From Ochrovirga pacifica (GTDB lineage Bacteria > Bacteroidota > Bacteroidia > Flavobacteriales > Flavobacteriaceae): a DNA stretch of 64,000 nt. Below the pieces are notes generated by a model that was given only the letters and a program-made list of their open reading frames with translations, made no database searches and was not told the origin of the DNA. A program made the translations under genes and the position numbers. Location: positions 1 through 64,000 of the forward strand of contig NZ_AFPK01000013.1 in assembly GCF_000220525.1 (NCBI RefSeq). Reading direction: 5' to 3'. Positions 1-55,363 of this stretch are shown here, one piece after another (the stretch's first letter is position 1; every line of letters begins with the position of its first letter).

Positions 1-2230
1 TATACATACGATTCGTATGGTCAAACGTTACAAATTGTACTCCTTCAACTTGGCTAGGCACATTTACTTTTTGCCAATTTTTTCCTCGGTTGTTGGAATG
101 ATACAATCCACCTTCTGACAATGGCATACGATAATTATGAATGTTTTTTTGTGCTGCAACAAACAAAGATTTTCTAGAAGGATCTCTAGGATCAAATTGC
201 ACATCATTAATTCTAGCAGGGTTTGGCAGGCCTTCATTGCTTTGTTCAAACGTTTTTCCGTTGTCTTTAGAAACAAAAAAACCTCCCTGATGTCCTTTTT
301 GAGGATTGTTTATATGAGTAATTCCAAAATAAAGATAATTTGGTTCTATAGGGTCTATTAACAAACCATTGGTATAAAAATCGTCTTTCCACTTGTTAGT
401 AGCTGGTGTTGCCACACCGTGTTTTTGCCAGGTTAGCCCTCTGTCTGTGCTTCTAAATAAATACTGTTTGTCTTCTTGTCTATTAGAAGTAGCATAAACG
501 ATATTTACATCATACGGATCAAAAACAATATTGCTTACTGTAGCTTGTGCACTTGGTATAAACTTTAAAGCAATCTCTTGGCTTTTTGTTATTTCAGGAA
601 TCCACAATCTGTGTTCTCCAGAACCCAACAGCGTAGTTTTTTTGCGCTTATCTTGAGCAATGGTCAAAGCGGGTAAATTGCTGTTTCCAGTTCCTACAAT
701 TGCACCAGAAGTCGTAATATTTTCATCTACCTGCTGCCAGCTCAATCCTTTATCTGTACTTAACATAGTGCTGTGGTCCGAGATTATCATTACACTACCA
801 TCTACTCCTACATCCAAACCACGCATAGAACGCAAAGCGTAATTGTTACCAAATCGCATGTGAGGAGAAGAATGACCTACCTTCATATTTTCATGAGTAG
901 GATTACCTCGCTGTTCCCAATAAGCTTTATCTTTTTCCCATGCATCTTGATACAAACGTGCTGTATTGATCCATTTTTTTCCAAAGTTTTCGGTTTTCCA
1001 CAAACGTCCTGGCATTATAGATTTACCTATTTGTGGATCTGCAAAACCTACATACACAACCCCTTCTTGACTAGGATCTGTACTAATCATATTAAAACGC
1101 TGTAAAGCTTTGGTAGGCAATTCAGGATACATTTTCTTTCCTTGTTTTTTATTTAAACCCAACCACTTTTCTATGTATTGGTAATAATTGGCAGGAACAC
1201 CACCCGTCAGTTGATTGATGTCTAAATACAAATCTCCTGTTATATTCTTCCAAGTTTTCCCTTCGTCTTCCGACATTAAAATACCTCCACTAGTTTTTGT
1301 TGTTTTTCCTACGGGATGGTATTGTGTTTGGTCAATAACATACAACTGAAATTTACCGGAGGTTTTGTGGTAATAAAAATCCATATCCATAATAATATCA
1401 CTGTCAAAAACCCCCTTAATTTGTTTCCATTTTTTTCCGCCATTTTGAGATACAAATAAACCGTAATTCGAAGCTGCAAACAGTTGATCTGTTTGGGTTG
1501 GATTGACAATGATGCGACATACTTGTATTTTCTCTGGCAATCCGTTGGTTATCAATTTCCAGCTTTTACCTCCATTAGTTGTTTTCCAAAGTTTTCCTAT
1601 ATGCATAAACTTTTTACCCTCATCACCTCTAGGATTTTTTGCTGTAATGTTAGACATCGACGACATCCAATCTTGTTGACGTACGTTTCCTCCACCAGCA
1701 ACGTACCATACATCTTTGTCTGTTGGATCTATTGTTACAGCTGCTACTTTTCTTCGCCAACTTTCTTTGTCTGTTCCATCATTGTCTAATTTATACCAAG
1801 GGCAGTAAGAAACAATTTCCCAATTTTTTCCTAAATCGTTCGTTTTCCATAACTGGGATGAAGTTAAAGCCAAACCAAACTGAGCATCACTAACAGAATA
1901 TTCTAAATCTCTTAAGTGATAAAAAGAAGCGTCTCCATTATAATCCGTTATCCCATACCAGCTTTTTCCATTGTTTTCAGACTGATAGGCATTCCACATA
2001 TCTGGACATTGGGTAATGAGTTTTGGAATGGTAGGATGGTAACGCATTAAATTTGCAAACCCTGCATTTCCAGGAGCTACTTGTTTCCAAAGAACAGCAT
2101 CGGTAGAAACAACTCGTTCTTTAGCCAAGCGTTTAAAAAAAGAATCTTGTGCATACATATTAAGCGCACAAAATAGCAATACGGTTCCCAATAGCTTATG
2201 GGATAATTTTGTTGCAATTTGTTTTATCAT
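1..2230 (-). CDS. Secreted BNR/Asp-box beta-propeller protein (VPS10/sortilin-like or GH74-like), 3' end outside window
   Basis: The frame is open from an ATG at 2230 down to the left edge, giving 743 residues with no stop in the window, so the C-terminus is missing. Residues 1-28 form a signal peptide (MIKQIATK, hydrophobic core, then MYAQ and cleavage before DSFF). The rest carries about ten Asp-box motifs of the S/T-x-D/N-x-G-K-x-W type (for example ENNGKSWY, TNDLGKNW, TNGGKSW, SEDEGKTW, STDKGLSW, STDRGLTW). These mark the blades of one or two beta-propellers. Proteins of this shape in marine Bacteroidota are called VPS10/sortilin-like or BNR-repeat proteins, and GH74 xyloglucanases share the fold. 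I see no catalytic signature that settles activity. A C-terminal secretion domain may lie beyond the edge. It is divergent from the gene at 2432. Confidence 0.85.
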   Translation of the reverse strand, partial: MIKQIATKLSHKLLGTVLLFCALNMYAQDSFFKRLAKERVVSTDAVLWKQVAPGNAGFANLMRYHPTIPKLITQCPDMWNAYQSENNGKSWYGITDYNGDASFYHLRDLEYSVSDAQFGLALTSSQLWKTNDLGKNWEIVSYCPWYKLDNDGTDKESWRRKVAAVTIDPTDKDVWYVAGGGNVRQQDWMSSMSNITAKNPRGDEGKKFMHIGKLWKTTNGGKSWKLITNGLPEKIQVCRIIVNPTQTDQLFAASNYGLFVSQNGGKKWKQIKGVFDSDIIMDMDFYYHKTSGKFQLYVIDQTQYHPVGKTTKTSGGILMSEDEGKTWKNITGDLYLDINQLTGGVPANYYQYIEKWLGLNKKQGKKMYPELPTKALQRFNMISTDPSQEGVVYVGFADPQIGKSIMPGRLWKTENFGKKWINTARLYQDAWEKDKAYWEQRGNPTHENMKVGHSSPHMRFGNNYALRSMRGLDVGVDGSVMIISDHSTMLSTDKGLSWQQVDENITTSGAIVGTGNSNLPALTIAQDKRKKTTLLGSGEHRLWIPEITKSQEIALKFIPSAQATVSNIVFDPYDVNIVYATSNRQEDKQYLFRSTDRGLTWQKHGVATPATNKWKDDFYTNGLLIDPIEPNYLYFGITHINNPQKGHQGGFFVSKDNGKTFEQSNEGLPNPARINDVQFDPRDPSRKSLFVAAQKNIHNYRMPLSEGGLYHSNNRGKNWQKVNVPSQVEGVQFVTFDHTNRMY

Positions 2231-2254
2231 TGGTTCTTTAATTATCTATAATCA

Positions 2255-2262
2255 CAAAAATA
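2255..2262 (-). promoter_or_regulatory. Candidate -7 box for the BNR protein
   Basis: Read on the minus strand this is TATTTTTG, a match to the Bacteroidota -7 consensus TAnnTTTG, 24 bases before the ATG. The nearest TTG is 26 bases upstream, farther than usual for a -33 element, so this is a weak call. Confidence 0.3.
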
Positions 2263-2376
2263 AAGTCCCTAGTAAAAAACAGAGGAAACAAATCACTTAT
2301 TTCATAAGACACAACGTTATTAGCATCTAGACAAGAGCTAGATTGTTCAAAAAAATAGCAATTATTTAATTCTATT

Positions 2377-2412
2377 TTGACAAACATAAACCCTAATTCT
2401 TCTGTACTTTTG
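2377..2412 (+). promoter_or_regulatory. Candidate promoter for the DUF4258-like gene
   Basis: TACTTTTG at 2405-2412 matches the TAnnTTTG -7 consensus and lies 19 bases before the ATG at 2432. A TTG at 2377-2379 could be the -33 element, but its spacing of 25 bases is longer than the usual 17-23. Confidence 0.35.
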
Positions 2413-2431
2413 AAATTAGAAAACGAACAAA

Positions 2432-2863
2432 ATGTTGAAAGAATTATTTGATAAAGTTGATGCCAAATTAATGCGAAGATTTGGCTATTATTTTGGAGGT
2501 CTAGCCCTCGGGGTAGTAGCACTTAAGTGTGTAAACGACCAAAAAGGTACAACCTTTGACTATGGCCCAAATGCCCGAACACTTAAACAATTGCGTTTAA
2601 GAGAAACTCTTATTATTGACGATTTGGCTCAACAAACCATTCATCAATACCAATTAGATTCTATGGATTTGCAATATGTATTGCACAAAGGTGATGTTGA
2701 TTTTTCTAAAAGTCACCCAAGAGTAAAGCCTTGCCCAGATTACTGGATTGATGCCACTATTGGAAAAAAACAAAATGAACAAATTGTAAGCACCAATTTT
2801 GCTTTTATTTTTGAACGATGCGACTCTATAGCTACCTTAAAAGAAATTAAAGTAATCGATTAA
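2432..2863 (+). CDS. Small membrane-anchored protein, DUF4258-like
   Basis: This 143-residue protein has an N-terminal hydrophobic stretch at about residues 18-33 (YYFGGLALGVVALKCV), so it is probably anchored in the inner membrane with the rest outside the cytoplasm. The motif YGPNAR at about residues 44-49 is followed by a region with GDVDFSKS (about 88-95) and a short beta-rich tail. This layout recalls small flavobacterial proteins filed under DUF4258, whose function is unknown. It sits 12 bases before the aldose epimerase-like gene and may be cotranscribed with it. Confidence that it is a gene is high; the family name is from memory. Confidence 0.75.
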   Translation: MLKELFDKVDAKLMRRFGYYFGGLALGVVALKCVNDQKGTTFDYGPNARTLKQLRLRETLIIDDLAQQTIHQYQLDSMDLQYVLHKGDVDFSKSHPRVKPCPDYWIDATIGKKQNEQIVSTNFAFIFERCDSIATLKEIKVID

Positions 2864-2875
2864 ATCAAAAAAGCT

Positions 2876-3751
2876 ATGCATTACACATTAGAAAATGAAT
2901 TTTTAAAAGCTACTTTTAAAACCTTAGGAGCTGAACTCATCAGCCTAAAAAGCAAAAAAGGAATTGAATACATATGGAATGGTGATGCTAAACACTGGGG
3001 CAGACATACACCTGTACTGTTTCCTATTGTAGGAGGATTAAAAGACAATACATATTATGTAAATCAGCAAGCTTACAAAATGAAGCAGCATGGGTTTGCT
3101 AGAAATAGTGAGTTTACCGTTGTAAAAGAAACTGAAAATACTTTGGTGTTTGAGTTGGCTTCTAGCAAAGCTACTCTACAATACTATCCTTTTGATTTTA
3201 CTTTACAAATCACTTATACACTAAGCAATCAAGGTATCAAAACTCATTATTCTGTAAAAAACCCATCTGATTGTAAACTTCTTTTTTCTATAGGTGCACA
3301 TCCTGCTTATGCCTGTCCTTTTGAAGCTGAGCAAAATAGAGAAGATTACATTTTAATTTTTGACAATGATGCTACTCCAGTATCTCAGCAATTAACAGCT
3401 AACGGAAGATCTACTAAAAATTTTGGTGTATTTAAACAAGGGGGGATTTTAGATTTGCCTAACACCATTTTTGACAAAGATGCATTGATTTTTAATCCGA
3501 ATCCTTTTTCCGAAGTGTCTTTTGTTCATCAACCTACAGGAAAAACTTATATGAGTGTGACTTTTAAAAACTTTCCTTATTTAGGAATTTGGTCTGCTAA
3601 CCAAGAAGCTCCTTTTATTTGTATAGAGCCTTGGCACGGTATTGCCGATGCAGAAGATCACAATCAGCAATTAGAAGACAAAGAAGGTATTCTTACACTA
3701 GCACCCAAAGAGGAGTTTATGTGTGAGTATTTCGTAACTATAGGAGCTTAA
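2876..3751 (+). CDS. Aldose 1-epimerase-like (galactose mutarotase/LacX-type) protein
   Basis: This 291-residue protein has the galactose-mutarotase fold signatures. HGFAR is at residues 72-76, GAHPAY (with the conserved His142) at 139-144, and EPWHG with the likely catalytic Glu251 at 251-255. The family interconverts alpha and beta anomers of hexoses or hexose phosphates in the cytoplasm. LacX/YeaD-like members, which this resembles by its short length, often have unknown substrates. There is no signal peptide. It converges on trmH, with a shared terminator between them. Confidence 0.85.
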   Translation: MHYTLENEFLKATFKTLGAELISLKSKKGIEYIWNGDAKHWGRHTPVLFPIVGGLKDNTYYVNQQAYKMKQHGFARNSEFTVVKETENTLVFELASSKATLQYYPFDFTLQITYTLSNQGIKTHYSVKNPSDCKLLFSIGAHPAYACPFEAEQNREDYILIFDNDATPVSQQLTANGRSTKNFGVFKQGGILDLPNTIFDKDALIFNPNPFSEVSFVHQPTGKTYMSVTFKNFPYLGIWSANQEAPFICIEPWHGIADAEDHNQQLEDKEGILTLAPKEEFMCEYFVTIGA

Positions 3752-39883: not shown

Positions 39884-41797
39884 ATGGGAATTATCACAAA
39901 AAAAACTCTAGAAGACTTAGAATTTAAAGAAGTCTTAAAATCAATCGCCACAAACTGCCAATCTGAAAAAGGAAAAGAAATGGTGGAAAATTTGTTTCCT
40001 TTTTCTAACAAACCTGATCTAGAAAATGCTTTAAATCAAGTACATGAATACCAAGGAGCATTGGTGGCAGAAAACAGAATTCCCAATCATTATTTTGATG
40101 ATATAGAAAAGGAAATAAAACTGCTACGTATAGAAAACAGCAAGCTTTTGCCCGAAGCTTTTTTAAAAATCGCCAATCTCTCTAACACTGCTAATGAGCT
40201 TCTTTTGTATTTTCAGAAATTTAGAGACTACTATCCTACACTGAGCTTACTTGCAGAACCTGTTGAATACACCAAGACTATTGTTGATGAAATTTTTAAA
40301 ATTATTACCAACTATGGTGAAGTACACAACAAAGCATCGGAGTTATTGAATCAGATAAGAAAAAGATTAACAGAGGTTCGAAGTCAGATTAGCAGTTCGT
40401 TTAATAGCGAATTGGCCAAGTACAACAAAGCTGGGTTTTTAGATGATATTAGAGAGTCTATTATAGAAAATCAACCTGTTTTGGCTGTCCAAGCTTTGCA
40501 CAGAAGAAAAGTAAAAGGAAGTATTTTAGGAACTTCTAAAACAGGAAGCATTGTTTTTATTGCTCCACAAAGCACGCTAAACTACCACAGGCAGTTGCAA
40601 GAACTTTTGTTAGAAGAAAAACAAGAAATTGATCGTATTCTACGAATTTTAACCAATGCCATCCGACCATTTACTCCTTTAATCAATCAATACCTACATT
40701 TATTGATTGTCTTAGATGTAATTAAAGCAAAAGCTCAATATGCTAAAGAAATTAATGGAGTTAAACCTGATTTTTCTAGCTCGCAAGAAATTGATTACAA
40801 AGAAGCTTATCATCCTATTTTATTAGAAAAAAATAAAGCCCAGAATTTAGAGGTTGTTCCACAGTCACTTTCGCTAAGCAAAGAGCAACAAATTATTGTT
40901 ATTTCTGGTCCCAATGCAGGAGGAAAAAGTATTACGTTAAAAACTATTGGACTGTTACAAGTTATGATTCAGAGTGGAATTTTAATTCCAGTACATGAAA
41001 CTAGTAAAACGCATTTTTTTGATCATATTTTAACAGATATTGGAGACAATCAATCTATAGAAAACCAATTAAGCACCTATAGCTATCGATTAAAAAACAT
41101 GCGTGGCTTTTTAAAAAAATGTACTGAAAACACCTTATTTTTAATTGATGAGTTTGGAACAGGATCCGATCCTGAATTGGGTGGGGCTTTGGCAGAAATA
41201 TTTTTAGAAGAGTTTTACCACAGAGGAGCCTTTGGGGTTATTACTACGCACTACACCAACTTAAAAGTTTTGGCAGATGAGCTAGACCACGTTGTAAATG
41301 CTAACATGGCTTTTGATAGCAAAACTTTAGAACCTTTGTTTACATTGCTTATAGGACAACCCGGAAGTTCTTTTACGTTTGAAGTTGCTCAGAAAAACGG
41401 AATTCCTTTTAGCCTGATTAATAGGGCAAAAAAGAAAATAGACAAGTCTAAGGTTCGTTTTGATAAAACCATATCTAAATTGCAGCAAGAACGCACCAAT
41501 TTGCAACGCAATACACAGCAAATGGAGCAGCACAGCTCTAAAGCAAAAGAACATGCAGATTTGCTTGCAGAAAAGGAAGCTAAAATTCAAGAAAAACTAG
41601 AAAGTTTTCAGACTTTATACGATAAAAATCAGCGTACTTTAAGCATAGGAAGAAAAGTTAATGAATTGTTAAACAAATACTTTCAGACCAATAACAAAAA
41701 AGAATTTAGATTTGAATTTGACAAATGGGTGTTGATAGAAAAAACAAAATACGATCAAGCACATCCAAAAGTAAAAAAACAAAACCTCAAAAAATAA
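39884..41797 (+). CDS. mutS2: MutS2-type ATPase, N-terminal part ending early by frame break
   Basis: This 637-residue protein has the MutS core: helical clamp region, then the ATPase domain with Walker A GPNAGGKS at 342-349, Walker B TLFLIDEFGTGSD with Asp422 and Glu423, and the THYTNLK signature. A coiled coil (about 505-580) follows. Flavobacterial MutS2 proteins usually continue with a Lys-rich linker and a KOW-like domain to about 720 residues. Here those parts lie in the -1 frame from 41780. The frame ends at TAA 18 bases after an A_AAA_AAA heptamer (41773-41779) that is in frame for -1 slippage. No Smr nuclease domain is seen in either part. MutS2 acts on stalled or collided ribosomes and in recombination control in other bacteria. 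Confidence 0.9.
   Translation: MGIITKKTLEDLEFKEVLKSIATNCQSEKGKEMVENLFPFSNKPDLENALNQVHEYQGALVAENRIPNHYFDDIEKEIKLLRIENSKLLPEAFLKIANLSNTANELLLYFQKFRDYYPTLSLLAEPVEYTKTIVDEIFKIITNYGEVHNKASELLNQIRKRLTEVRSQISSSFNSELAKYNKAGFLDDIRESIIENQPVLAVQALHRRKVKGSILGTSKTGSIVFIAPQSTLNYHRQLQELLLEEKQEIDRILRILTNAIRPFTPLINQYLHLLIVLDVIKAKAQYAKEINGVKPDFSSSQEIDYKEAYHPILLEKNKAQNLEVVPQSLSLSKEQQIIVISGPNAGGKSITLKTIGLLQVMIQSGILIPVHETSKTHFFDHILTDIGDNQSIENQLSTYSYRLKNMRGFLKKCTENTLFLIDEFGTGSDPELGGALAEIFLEEFYHRGAFGVITTHYTNLKVLADELDHVVNANMAFDSKTLEPLFTLLIGQPGSSFTFEVAQKNGIPFSLINRAKKKIDKSKVRFDKTISKLQQERTNLQRNTQQMEQHSSKAKEHADLLAEKEAKIQEKLESFQTLYDKNQRTLSIGRKVNELLNKYFQTNNKKEFRFEFDKWVLIEKTKYDQAHPKVKKQNLKK
41773..41779 (+). promoter_or_regulatory. 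Slippery heptamer A_AAA_AAA at the mutS2 frame break
   Basis: The zero-frame codons are GTA AAA AAA CAA, so the seven A residues fit X_XXY_YYZ exactly. A -1 slip here would give ACA AAA CCT CAA and lead into the C-terminal frame. A one-base A insertion in the run would have the same effect, so a natural mutation or sequencing error is equally possible. Confidence 0.55.
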
Positions 41798-42093
41798 GAG
41801 AAAAAAAAGAAAAAATTAAAGAGGAAAAAGCCATTCAGCAAACCGAAAAAGAAGTATTGCAAAAGGTCGAATCGGTTAGAGAAGAAAAGAAAAAAGAAGA
41901 AAAAATAGCACAACAAAAAAAAGACAGTTATATCTTTAAAGTGGGAGATAAAGTTCGACTAAAGGACGGTAGAGCAAATGGAACAATTGAAAAGATTGAT
42001 AAGAAAAAAATAATTATTGACTACGGTATGTTTACCACCGCTACCACACTAGACAAAATAGAGCTAGTGGTAGCTGCCAAAAGAAAAAAATAA
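41780..42093 (+). CDS. MutS2 C-terminal part (Lys-rich linker and KOW-like domain) in -1 frame
   Basis: Read in the frame entered after a -1 slip, this stretch gives about 104 residues. A highly charged linker (KIREKKEKIKEEKAIQQTEK, then VESVREEKKKEEKIA) is followed by a beta domain with FKVGDKVRLKDGRANGTIEK and IIIDYGMFTTATTLDKIELV. That matches the ending of flavobacterial MutS2 proteins. An open frame reaches back to an ATG at 41725, but the residues before the heptamer look like noise. The stop overlaps the next ATG (TAATG). It could still be made as a separate small protein from 41725. Confidence 0.7.
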
Positions 42094-44918
42094 TGAAAAA
42101 AATTGTTACTGTACTATGTTTATTACTAAGTTGTTTTGTGTTTGCCCAACAACAGCACGAGCCCCAAAGTTGGTTTAAAATGTACAGTGACTATGTTAAC
42201 GTTATTTACAAAAAAGGACAAGAACAAGAGGCTATAAAAATTAGCAATACCATTAATTACATTCAAAAAAACAACAAAGGTTCTATGGGGCTTTACGACT
42301 CCATTCCGGTTGATGTTGTTCTAAGGTCTAAAACAGTTGAATCTAACGGTTTTGTGACAGTAAGCCCTTTTAGAAGCGAGTTTTTTAACGTTGCTCCTAC
42401 AACATTCAGCTCATTAGGTACAACAGATTGGATTAGTACTTTGGCCATACACGAATACAGACACGTACAACAATTTTTAAATCATAAAGCAGGGGCAACC
42501 AAAGTATTGTACTACTTATTTGGAGAATCAGGCTGGGGATTGGGAAGTGTACTAGCAGTACCCAATTGGTATTTTGAAGGAGATGCCGTAATTATGGAAA
42601 CTGCTTTGACCCAGAGCGGACGTGGTCGTTTGCCTAAATTTACTGCCTTACAAAGGGCTTTGTACAAAGACAAACGCTATTACTCTTACCAGAAAATTAG
42701 GAATGGATCTTTTACGGATTTGGTTCCTAATCATTATGTAACAGGATATCAAATGCTAAATTACTTTCGCAACCACTACAATGCTGCTAAGCTAGACAAC
42801 ATTGCAAAAAAAGCAGCTTCTTTTCAGTTTCCTTTTTATCCTTTTAGTTATCAACTTAAAAAAGAAACGGGCTTATCTACCACGGATTTGTATGAGAAAT
42901 CTGCTGAAGAAAATTCTAAAATATGGAAAAACCAACGAAATCAACTTAATGTTTTAGAGTATCCATCTATCACTAAAAACACCAAAAAAGTTTCTCTATA
43001 CAATTTTCCTCAACTAATGGAAAATGGTCAGTTTGTGGCCTTAAAAAACGAGCTAGATGCTGTAGAACGTTTTGTAAGCATTTTTAATGACGGAACGGAA
43101 AGTGTGGTAACGAATAATGTTATCAACATAGATCCTTATTTTCAATACCAAAATCAGCAATTGTTGTTTACAGGAGTTTCGTACCATCCTAGATACAATT
43201 ACAGTAGCTACAATGATATTTTTGTGTACGATTTGAAACATAAAAAACGAAAAAAAATTACTCATAAAAAGCGTTATTTTTCTCCTCATTTTAATGCTGA
43301 CAATTCTTTGATAGCAGCCATAAAAACTAATGAAGGAAACTATGAATTGGTAATTTTAGACACTCAAGGGAATGAGTTAACTGCTTTTGCATTAAGCGGA
43401 GTTTTAAGTAGACCAAAGTTTGTGAACAACAGTACGGTGGTGTATTTAAAACAAGAACATCACAAGTTGGCTATTTTTAAATTCAACCTAAAAAACCAAC
43501 AAGAAACTGCTTTAACTGTGTGGACTTCTCATATAATGGATGATTTGTTTGCAACTACAAATCATGTTTATTTTTCTGCATCCTTTGATGGAATTGACAA
43601 TATTTACCGAGTTTCAACCCATGGGAATCAACAAATAGAACAACTTACAAAAGCTACGATAGGGGCATATCAACCTTTTGTAAAAAAACAACAATTGTAT
43701 TTTATAGAAACCATAGCTACAGGTACCAAAATTTCTACAACTCCCATTGCTACACCTGATACCCTACAAATTACAGAACCTACTGTAATGGATTTTAACA
43801 ATAAAAAAACAGTTTCTTTTGAAAATGGATCTATTTTAGAAAAGGTTTCCAACAAAATGTATCCTTCAAAAAAGTACACCTCGTCTTTTCAAGACCTAAA
43901 ATTTCACGATTGGTTCTACACCATTTCTGAAGAAAAAGTTGGAGCTACTGTAAATGCTACTACTTTACTAAACGATATTAGTTTAACGGCAGGTACTGAT
44001 ATTTTTTTAAATGAAAACAACTCTTACGAGTTAAAATTTGCTGCTGCTTATCAAAAATGGTGGCCTGAGCTAAGTGTATCGGCCGAATACCAACATAGAG
44101 AATTTGAAGGAAGCCTTCAGGATGCAAACAATACTAGTTTTGATGGTGTTTATGAATTTCACAGTATTAATATAGCTCCAAGTATTGGGCTGCCCTTATC
44201 GCAAATTAATGGCAACTATAACAACCAAGCGTATTTAGGATTGGCTTATGAACTAAACAGTAGAACAGGAACAACATTTACTGAAGAAAATACAGGTGAA
44301 AAACTAGATCTTGAGTCTATTGATCTAAACTTTTATAAAATTCAGTTTGCAGCTTCTAGTCTTAGAAGAAAATCCAAACAGAACATCAATACACGTGCAG
44401 GTTTTTCTACCTCAATTCGCTACAATCAAGGATTTCAAAATTCTTTAAAAGCCTTTAATAATTTTTATTTTTCTACAATCAATCGCTTGTATGTTCCTGG
44501 AATTTCACGTAGCCATAATGCTTATATTTCTTTTGCTTATCAAAAAAATGGCATTCAGCAAGAAGATACTTTTAGGTATGCTCGAGGTTTTAAAACTAGC
44601 TTAGCTAAGGAAGCTTATTTAACTTCCTTTAACTATCAAATGCCTTTGTTGTATCCTGATTTTGGCTTATGGGGCATTACTTATTTTAAGCGTATAAGAG
44701 CCAATCTTTTTGCAGATATAAGCACTTTGAATCTCAACAATTTTAAAACCCATCAAAATGCTGTAGGGCTTGAAATTATTTTTGACAATACTTTTTTAAA
44801 CATTCCCGAAGCATTGATAGGAATTGGGTTTAGAAGTAGTTTTTTATTAACCAACGATTATCAAACCTTAGACAAACCTGTGGTTGGGAGTTTCTTTTTA
44901 TCTACTACTTTGTTTTAA
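42093..44918 (+). CDS. Secreted gluzincin-like zinc peptidase with TolB-like propeller and C-terminal outer-membrane barrel
   Basis: This 941-residue protein has a signal peptide (1-19, cleavage after VFAQ). Residues 30-270 hold a peptidase MA-type domain with HEYRH at 120-124 and WYFEGDAV at 159-166. Glu162 would be the third zinc ligand and Glu121 the catalytic base. A WD40/TolB-like region follows (about 290-560, with repeats such as NDIFVYDLKHKKRKKITH and NELDAVERF). The last 300 residues alternate as beta strands and end in Phe (FFLSTTLF), an outer-membrane barrel like bacterial surface antigens. No named family comes to mind for the whole. Its ATG overlaps the stop of the mutS2 tail, so they share a transcript. 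Confidence 0.82.
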   Translation: MKKIVTVLCLLLSCFVFAQQQHEPQSWFKMYSDYVNVIYKKGQEQEAIKISNTINYIQKNNKGSMGLYDSIPVDVVLRSKTVESNGFVTVSPFRSEFFNVAPTTFSSLGTTDWISTLAIHEYRHVQQFLNHKAGATKVLYYLFGESGWGLGSVLAVPNWYFEGDAVIMETALTQSGRGRLPKFTALQRALYKDKRYYSYQKIRNGSFTDLVPNHYVTGYQMLNYFRNHYNAAKLDNIAKKAASFQFPFYPFSYQLKKETGLSTTDLYEKSAEENSKIWKNQRNQLNVLEYPSITKNTKKVSLYNFPQLMENGQFVALKNELDAVERFVSIFNDGTESVVTNNVINIDPYFQYQNQQLLFTGVSYHPRYNYSSYNDIFVYDLKHKKRKKITHKKRYFSPHFNADNSLIAAIKTNEGNYELVILDTQGNELTAFALSGVLSRPKFVNNSTVVYLKQEHHKLAIFKFNLKNQQETALTVWTSHIMDDLFATTNHVYFSASFDGIDNIYRVSTHGNQQIEQLTKATIGAYQPFVKKQQLYFIETIATGTKISTTPIATPDTLQITEPTVMDFNNKKTVSFENGSILEKVSNKMYPSKKYTSSFQDLKFHDWFYTISEEKVGATVNATTLLNDISLTAGTDIFLNENNSYELKFAAAYQKWWPELSVSAEYQHREFEGSLQDANNTSFDGVYEFHSINIAPSIGLPLSQINGNYNNQAYLGLAYELNSRTGTTFTEENTGEKLDLESIDLNFYKIQFAASSLRRKSKQNINTRAGFSTSIRYNQGFQNSLKAFNNFYFSTINRLYVPGISRSHNAYISFAYQKNGIQQEDTFRYARGFKTSLAKEAYLTSFNYQMPLLYPDFGLWGITYFKRIRANLFADISTLNLNNFKTHQNAVGLEIIFDNTFLNIPEALIGIGFRSSFLLTNDYQTLDKPVVGSFFLSTTLF

Positions 44919-53452: not shown

Positions 53453-55363
53453 ATGTCTGACATTATTCAATTATTACCCGATCATGTTGCCAATCAAATA
53501 GCAGCTGGCGAGGTAGTGCAAAGACCCGCATCTGTAGTAAAAGAATTGCTAGAAAATGCAATAGATGCTGGAGCCAAAAACATACATTTAATTTTAAAAG
53601 ATGCTGGAAAAACATTAATTCAAGTAATTGATGATGGTTCTGGAATGTCTCAAACTGATGCTCGTTTGTGTTTTGAAAGGCATGCTACTTCAAAAATTAG
53701 AGAAGCCGAAGATTTGTTTAACCTAAACACTAAAGGCTTTAGAGGAGAGGCAATGGCCTCTATAGCTGCTATTGCACAAGTAGAAATGAAAACTCGTTTG
53801 GCTACCGAAGAGTTAGGAACTTGTATACAAATAGAAGCTAGTAAAATTATTCATCAAGAAATAACAACAACTCCTGTAGGAACCAATACTTGCGTTAAAA
53901 ATTTATTTTTTAACATTCCTGCACGTCGAAATTTTCTAAAATCTGATGCTGTAGAAACGCGTCACATAATAGACGAATTTCAACGAGTTGCCTTAGTACA
54001 CCCTGATATTGGTTTTGCAATGAATCATAACAATTCAGAAATTTTTAAACTTCCTTCGGGAAACTTAAAACAACGAGTGGTGAATATTTTTGGTCAAAAA
54101 ACCAATGAAAAACTTATTCCTATTCAAGAAGATACAGACTTGGTTTCTGTGGACGGATTTATTATTAAACCACAATTTTCTAAAAAAAAACGCGGGGAGC
54201 AATTCTTTTTTGTAAACAATAGATTTATTAAAAGTCCATACCTACATCATGCAATTAACAGTGCTTTTGATGGCTTGCTAGAAAGAGAGCATCATCCTGG
54301 TTATTTTTTATATCTAAAAGTTCCCACACATTCTATCGACATCAATATACATCCTACCAAAACAGAGGTAAAGTTTGACAATGAAAAGGTGTTATACGAA
54401 ATTATAAAAGCTGCTGTAAAGCATAGTTTGGGGCAATTTAACATGAAACCTTCTTTAGACTTTTCTAGAGATAAAAACCTAGAAACACCTTATCATTACA
54501 AAGATGCTCCCATTAAAACTCCTACTATACAGGTAGACCCTAATTTTAATCCTTTTAAATCCGAGAGTAATTTTAATCCTTTTGATACAGATCCAAAGCC
54601 TGTAAAAAAAACAAATGTCAATTTAGGAATCGAAACGGTTAGCAACAAAGAAAAACAATCTTTTGCCTCTCGCCCAATTACAAAAAAACAAGGAGATTGG
54701 GAAGCTTTGTATCACGGAATAGAATCGGTAGCAAATAAAGAACCTAACAAAGAAGAACTTGCTCCTGAGTTGTTTGAAAAAACAGAAAACAATCAGCTAG
54801 TTGATACATTTCAGGTGGTTAAAAAATATATTTTATGCCATCTAAATACAGGTACGTTTTTAGTACATCAACATTTGGCACATCAACGAATTTTATACGA
54901 AAATTTTCTAGCTAACATCACTGTAAAAGAAGCTTCTAGCCAACAATTACTATTTCCTATTTACCTGAGCTACAGTACTCAAGAAATTCACATTCTAAAA
55001 ACCATACAAGAAGAACTAGAAAGTACTGGTTTTTTATTTGACAAAATAACCGAAAAGGCTGTGGTTGTGACAGGAATTCCGACAACTATTACAGAAAGTC
55101 AGATTAGCATGGTTTTTGAACAATTAATTGAAGATTTTCAACAGGATATTCAAGAAAATAGTTTTAGTCAACTAGATATGATTGCTAAATCTTTGTCCAA
55201 AACTTTGGCAATTAGAACAGGGACTAAGCTTACGGATACCGAACAACAAAATCTGATTAATGATTTGTTTGCTTGCAAAGAGGCTAACATTTCTCCGTTT
55301 AGAAAAAAAATATTCACAAAAATAGACATCAAAAAATTGGATGCCTTTTTTAACCTAGATTAA
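53453..55363 (+). CDS. mutL: DNA mismatch repair protein MutL
   Basis: This 636-residue protein has the GHKL ATPase half: ELLENAIDAGAKNI at about 31-44, VIDDGSGM near 62-69, and TKGFRGEAMASIA near 98-110. The N-terminal transducer domain carries PTKTEVKFDNEKV near 303-315. A variable linker (340-455) leads to a C-terminal dimerisation domain. Its endonuclease motif is altered: HQHLAHQRILYE starts near 472 in place of DQHA-x2-E-x4-E. MutL couples MutS recognition to excision. The loss of the Asp and first Glu suggests weak or no nicking activity. Confidence 0.94.
   Translation: MSDIIQLLPDHVANQIAAGEVVQRPASVVKELLENAIDAGAKNIHLILKDAGKTLIQVIDDGSGMSQTDARLCFERHATSKIREAEDLFNLNTKGFRGEAMASIAAIAQVEMKTRLATEELGTCIQIEASKIIHQEITTTPVGTNTCVKNLFFNIPARRNFLKSDAVETRHIIDEFQRVALVHPDIGFAMNHNNSEIFKLPSGNLKQRVVNIFGQKTNEKLIPIQEDTDLVSVDGFIIKPQFSKKKRGEQFFFVNNRFIKSPYLHHAINSAFDGLLEREHHPGYFLYLKVPTHSIDINIHPTKTEVKFDNEKVLYEIIKAAVKHSLGQFNMKPSLDFSRDKNLETPYHYKDAPIKTPTIQVDPNFNPFKSESNFNPFDTDPKPVKKTNVNLGIETVSNKEKQSFASRPITKKQGDWEALYHGIESVANKEPNKEELAPELFEKTENNQLVDTFQVVKKYILCHLNTGTFLVHQHLAHQRILYENFLANITVKEASSQQLLFPIYLSYSTQEIHILKTIQEELESTGFLFDKITEKAVVVTGIPTTITESQISMVFEQLIEDFQQDIQENSFSQLDMIAKSLSKTLAIRTGTKLTDTEQQNLINDLFACKEANISPFRKKIFTKIDIKKLDAFFNLD

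Follow-up and report, generated by a model that had tools for sequence, protein, structure and literature searches.

The mutS2 gene in the 64-kb stretch of DNA analysed here (hereafter the window, in which no tRNA gene was found) stops shortly after seven A residues that are read in frame as A_AAA_AAA, while the rest of the protein is found in the -1 frame. We asked which of four readings, all put forward in a preliminary description of the locus, accounts for this arrangement: programmed ribosomal frameshifting, slippage of RNA polymerase, a recent loss of one base or an assembly error in a homopolymer. The results favour the last two and do not favour programmed frameshifting, and polymerase slippage appears improbable. 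With a probability of roughly 0.9, the A-run departs by one base from the length at which the frame stays open, as an undercall or a recent deletion and not as a programmed signal.

The split mutS2 gene and its relatives

The gene break is truly present in the assembly, and it involves the following features:

39884..41797, + strand: mutS2 zero frame, 637 aa, MutS2 core and ATPase, TAA stop at 41795-41797 (open reading frame listing, TIGR01069, MutS_V PF00488)
41722..41797, + strand: overlap in which the zero and -1 frames are both open; the break lies somewhere inside, and alignment with relatives places it at the A7 run
41773..41779, + strand: A7 run, in-frame A_AAA_AAA, one base out of phase relative to the intact frame of relatives
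41779..42093, + strand: -1 continuation, charged linker helix and putative KOW/SH3-like (MSSS) domain of MutS2, stop at 42091-42093 (open reading frame, profile and fold matches)

The codons of the mutS2 frame at the break read GTA AAA AAA CAA AAC CTC AAA AAA TAA; with the stop counted in, the TAA at 41795-41797 closes the frame 18 bases after the run at 41773-41779, just as first described. The first piece of the gene scores 562.3 bits against NCBIfam TIGR01069 (mutS2; model positions 2-618 of 790), which passes the equivalog cut-off of 400 bits, and MutS_V (PF00488) is matched in the same zero-frame product. In the intact relative L032, positions 2-694 of this model are spanned in one frame.

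The claim that a linker and a KOW-like domain continue in the -1 frame as far as 42093 was supported by the open reading frame listing, by TIGR01069 and by a fold match, each single score being modest. The -1 frame is open from 41722, and its listed open reading frame (41725-42093) encodes 122 aa. The tail piece gives a weak match to TIGR01069 (21.9 bits, E 4.8e-5, model 572-694) and scores 22.2 bits against PF20297, under the cut-off of 26.8; at E 0.01 the latter profile was matched by the MutS2 of none of three intact relatives. In the structure model of the tail (mean pLDDT 80, 17-row alignment) a long helix followed by five strands is predicted, and the Foldseek search with this model placed B. 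subtilis MutS2 on the collided disome at rank 1 (8r55 chain z, E 3.6e-3); a second MutS2 model came third, and many KOW/SH3-like domains were among the matches. No Foldseek match was obtained at E 0.001, and the tail profile retrieved nothing at E 0.01 from PDB sequences. The stop of the tail overlaps the start of the next open reading frame (42093-44918, 941 aa) as TAATG at 42091-42095.

In Bacillus subtilis MutS2, too, the core and ATPase precede a KOW domain, the counterpart of which here is probably the tail; according to the available part of PMC10897456, the KOW and SMR domains recruit the B. subtilis protein to collided ribosomes. The proteins differ in that no Smr domain was matched in the MutS2 of the three intact relatives scanned (Pfam Smr at E 0.01; L032, L033 and L003, loci 1501-3708); the TIGR01069 match in L032 ends at position 694 of 790. 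The only Smr match in the assembly lies in a separate short protein (L181, C44:38776-38937) with a start that looks KOW-like by eye, in line with the Bacteroidetes KOW-SMR clade of that paper as far as its available text goes.

The source assembly comprises 3.38 Mb in 77 contigs. Its nearest named relatives, Wenyingzhuangia aestuarii (83% identical) and W. heitensis (82%), each carry mutS2 as one intact frame of 736 codons, and when their DNA is aligned between 41601 and the stop codon of the tail, the sole gap is a single base in the A-run; after the mutS2 stop, the alignment contains about 50 extra bases in both Wenyingzhuangia species. At the break W. aestuarii reads GTT AAA AAA ACA, that is, seven A residues in the register which keeps the frame and without the heptamer, thus their number alone is not enough to disrupt mutS2. 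The frame is likewise intact and free of the heptamer in the single-contig relative G407. W. heitensis reads GTA AAA AAG ACA and has an in-frame A_AAA_AAG in an intact gene; this heptamer is located at mutS2 codon 631, the same codon as the break, and is absent from W. aestuarii and G407. The preliminary description had named, as a finding that would refute the frameshift reading, relatives in which mutS2 is unbroken and the slippery run is missing: the first holds in all relatives seen, the second only in part, being true of W. aestuarii and G407 and untrue of W. heitensis. Beyond these species, a MutS2-level match was found in 46 of 59 other genomes, all 46 with an open frame of at least 699 aa (the remaining 13 gave weaker MutS-like matches only), and a search of 397 genomes of the family matched 373, with an open frame of at least 720 aa in 149 of the 149 other genomes among the matches listed.

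Selection was estimated as pN/pS, each piece being compared in its own frame with W. aestuarii, W. heitensis and G407. The values are 0.16-0.17 for the first 630 codons, 0.11-0.17 for the KOW part of the tail and 0.38-0.45 for its linker part, the last exceeding the linker values of every pairing among the three relatives (0.13-0.21). When W. aestuarii is set against W. heitensis, the first 630 codons, KOW part and linker give 0.07, 0.07 and 0.13, respectively, and the Wenyingzhuangia linkers compared with G407 give 0.21. Synonymous sites are near saturation in these comparisons, so the divergence is mostly old, and the KOW part has been kept as protein through nearly all of it; since it is still constrained, the break is either very recent or not real. 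As judged from these ratios, the constraint on the KOW part is compatible with an artefact, with a very recent loss and with continued translation, and it argues against an old truncation, toward which the faster linker may point slightly.

The heptamer as a frameshift signal

In frameshifting of the dnaX type, a slippery heptamer in the zero frame and a long -1 frame are combined with a downstream structure and a Shine-Dalgarno-like element. The mutS2 locus shares the first two: a heptamer of the X_XXY_YYZ form is present in the zero frame at the break, its register is right, and beyond the stop the -1 frame runs on for 99 open codons. Programmed -1 shifting at A_AAA_AAA would yield a short MutS2 and a long one with the KOW domain, and the purifying selection on the KOW part is what one would expect of it. 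Support might also be sought in the A_AAA_AAG of W. heitensis at the same codon, this being the shift heptamer of E. coli dnaX (PMC5009743, available part); a -1 shift there would end 27 codons later. The two-frame layout was observed in no relative whose frame was seen, so in contrast to dnaX it is not common to the relatives, and going by the strengths given in the accessible text of PMC5009743 the mutS2 heptamer is also the weaker one.

Neither of the accessory elements was seen. Folding of 41780-41880 (z = -1.07; 32 of 200 shuffles fold equally well) and of 41740-41840 (z = -0.90; 43 of 200) was no better than that of shuffled sequences in a test that covered structures without pseudoknots, and by reading there is no Shine-Dalgarno-like stretch in 41750-41772, just upstream of the run; Flavobacterium johnsoniae seldom uses such sequences, according to the part of PMC8710568 at hand.

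The heptamer itself proved uninformative, since in the 946 kb of the assembly surveyed it occurs in frame in 347 of 743 predicted genes (537 copies). Its density is 18.9 per 10,000 codons versus 11.8 in G407, despite a slightly higher G+C content (33.9% vs 31.7%; 946 kb vs 1.8 Mb). Thirty-eight of the 537 copies lie within 45 nt of a stop, and a -1 frame of at least 40 codons past that stop leaves nine rows (eight open reading frames), which by reading are mutS2, a K+-channel-like gene, a sulfatase and five ordinary next genes. The same layout gave 11 rows (10 open reading frames) among 1,396 genes of G407, thus a heptamer followed by a long -1 frame is common in itself. In the lysine-rich linker, A_AAA_AAN comes and goes: it was present at varying codons in 9 of 17 intact relatives (W. 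aestuarii, W. heitensis, G407 and 14 relatives with + strand loci; codons 616-660, or 601-650 for the three named first), with none in W. aestuarii and G407. Titles and abstract beginnings of the literature listed for 'MutS2' and 'frameshift' contain no paper on a programmed frameshift in mutS2. Since the relatives seen are intact, the heptamer is common in the genome and the folding does not exceed chance, programmed frameshifting lacks support, and we regard it as very unlikely.

Frame breaks elsewhere in the assembly

Further breaks were sought by comparing predicted proteins with DNA in both directions, in 946 kb (28%) of the assembly and 1.8 Mb of G407. Among genes that passed thresholds of 60% identity and 60% coverage, 4 of 184 were broken in the assembly and 0 of 183 in G407 (Fisher p = 0.12, not significant alone); lowering the identity floor to 45% gave 4/226 and 0/230. 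Together with the sulfatase, found from reading frames and a search, the breaks are as listed below, the names of the genes being readings of the sequence save where a search is cited:

41773-41779, + strand: mutS2, A-run, one base short (orthologue comparison)
C51, ~33.8 kb: K+-channel-like gene, A-run by reading (orthologue comparison)
C73, ~56.0 kb: GH2-like enzyme, A-run by reading (orthologue comparison)
C73, ~77.7 kb: second glycoside-hydrolase-like enzyme, not at a homopolymer (orthologue comparison)
C49, 6.68-7.99 kb: sulfatase, A-run by reading (reading frames and search)

The open frame of the sulfatase measures 469 aa versus 590-644 aa in the 24 other matches listed, two of them paralogues from the source genome itself; the upstream piece served as the query. 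By reading, four of the five breaks are one base short in an A-run, to which a gain of two bases is formally equal, and the three runs other than that of mutS2 are six to ten long. Runs of at least six A or T make up 2.9% of coding bases, which gives p = 3.5e-6 for four of five breaks in such runs. The sulfatase was first noticed in the list of A-heptamers, which favours runs, and was also listed by a run-blind scan; when it is left aside, three of the four breaks from the run-blind orthologue comparison lie in runs (p = 9.6e-5). That all four run breaks fall in A and none in T is not remarkable (p = 0.24).

A coding-potential scan for split genes returned 109 candidate pairs, 29 of them past the filter; three of these are known breaks (mutS2 and the two on C73), and all 13 others that were inspected read as ordinary neighbouring genes. 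A second scan gave 16 pairs, namely three split genes (mutS2, the GH2-like enzyme and the sulfatase) and 13 ordinary neighbours, judged from translations only. It missed the K+-channel-like gene and one gene on C73, so the sensitivity of the scan is partial. In our judgement, none of the five broken genes looks essential. A mutator state through loss of mismatch repair was considered and is disfavoured because the frames of MutL (53465-55141, 642 aa) and of a MutS-like protein (C63, 873 aa) are both open.

Weighing the explanations

The two marks of a one-base shortfall were both found: the run differs from that of relatives whose frame is intact, and further breaks are associated with runs (one of the five is off-run). 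Compared with a single-base homopolymer indel in a conserved gene, mutS2 is likewise one base out of phase at an A-run, with relatives intact and other such breaks in the same assembly, and no difference was found. The shortfall could have either of two causes. A homopolymer undercall in the draft assembly has about an even chance, and a real loss of one A in the strain, very recent and due to replication slippage, is only somewhat less probable; as to which cause applies, we lean slightly to the artefact. An undercall fits the repeated one-base shortfalls in A-runs together with the intact tail. A real deletion fits too: the five genes look non-essential, which suits real mutations at least as well as errors, and one break lies off a run. 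A caveat on the shortfall reading is that continued translation of the tail through slippage would leave it looking just as conserved.

Slippage of RNA polymerase would add an A to part of the transcripts, restoring full-length MutS2 and making the break tolerable, as is reported for the endosymbionts Buchnera and Blochmannia (PMC5009743, available part). The mutS2 locus resembles described cases of rescue (PMC1088944 and PMC5009743, in their available parts) in having an A-run at the break, where an added A in the mRNA restores the frame, and the several genes broken in A-runs, one of them in a run of ten, and the constraint on the tail speak in its favour. Runs of six and seven are, however, short for slippage; the genome, at 3.38 Mb, is not reduced; and G407 has no such breaks in the 183 genes tested. 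No stretch of some nine or more A or T residues was found at the mutS2 break, the run there being seven versus nine or more in the systems compared. According to the accessible text of PMC1088944, a large share of bacterial genomes show selection against slippage-prone runs when these are nine long. For this reason we give little credence to the wider possibility that the lineage tolerates one-base A-run losses in several genes and that slippage of the polymerase or the ribosome yields MutS2 both with and without the ribosome-binding KOW domain; for mutS2 taken singly, rescue by the polymerase is equally doubtful. The remaining explanation, that the lineage long ago fixed a MutS2 without KOW and the tail is a relic, can appeal to a short product that keeps the core and ATPase, to the separate Smr protein with its KOW-like start and to a linker more diverged here than among the three relatives. 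Against it stand a -1 frame that stays open over 104 codons and a pN/pS for KOW matching the value of the translated piece, and we hold it for the least probable of all.

With the one-base shortfall as the preferred reading, an attractive example of ribosome-rescue gene recoding that lacks support can be set aside; only a multi-gene slippage rescue would be new, if true. Given several A-run breaks, no split gene in this assembly should be called a pseudogene or a recoded gene until the reads have been consulted. Should the deletion prove real, the MutS2 of the strain would keep the ATPase core and lack the KOW domain, and the effect to be expected would be lost recruitment to collided ribosomes.
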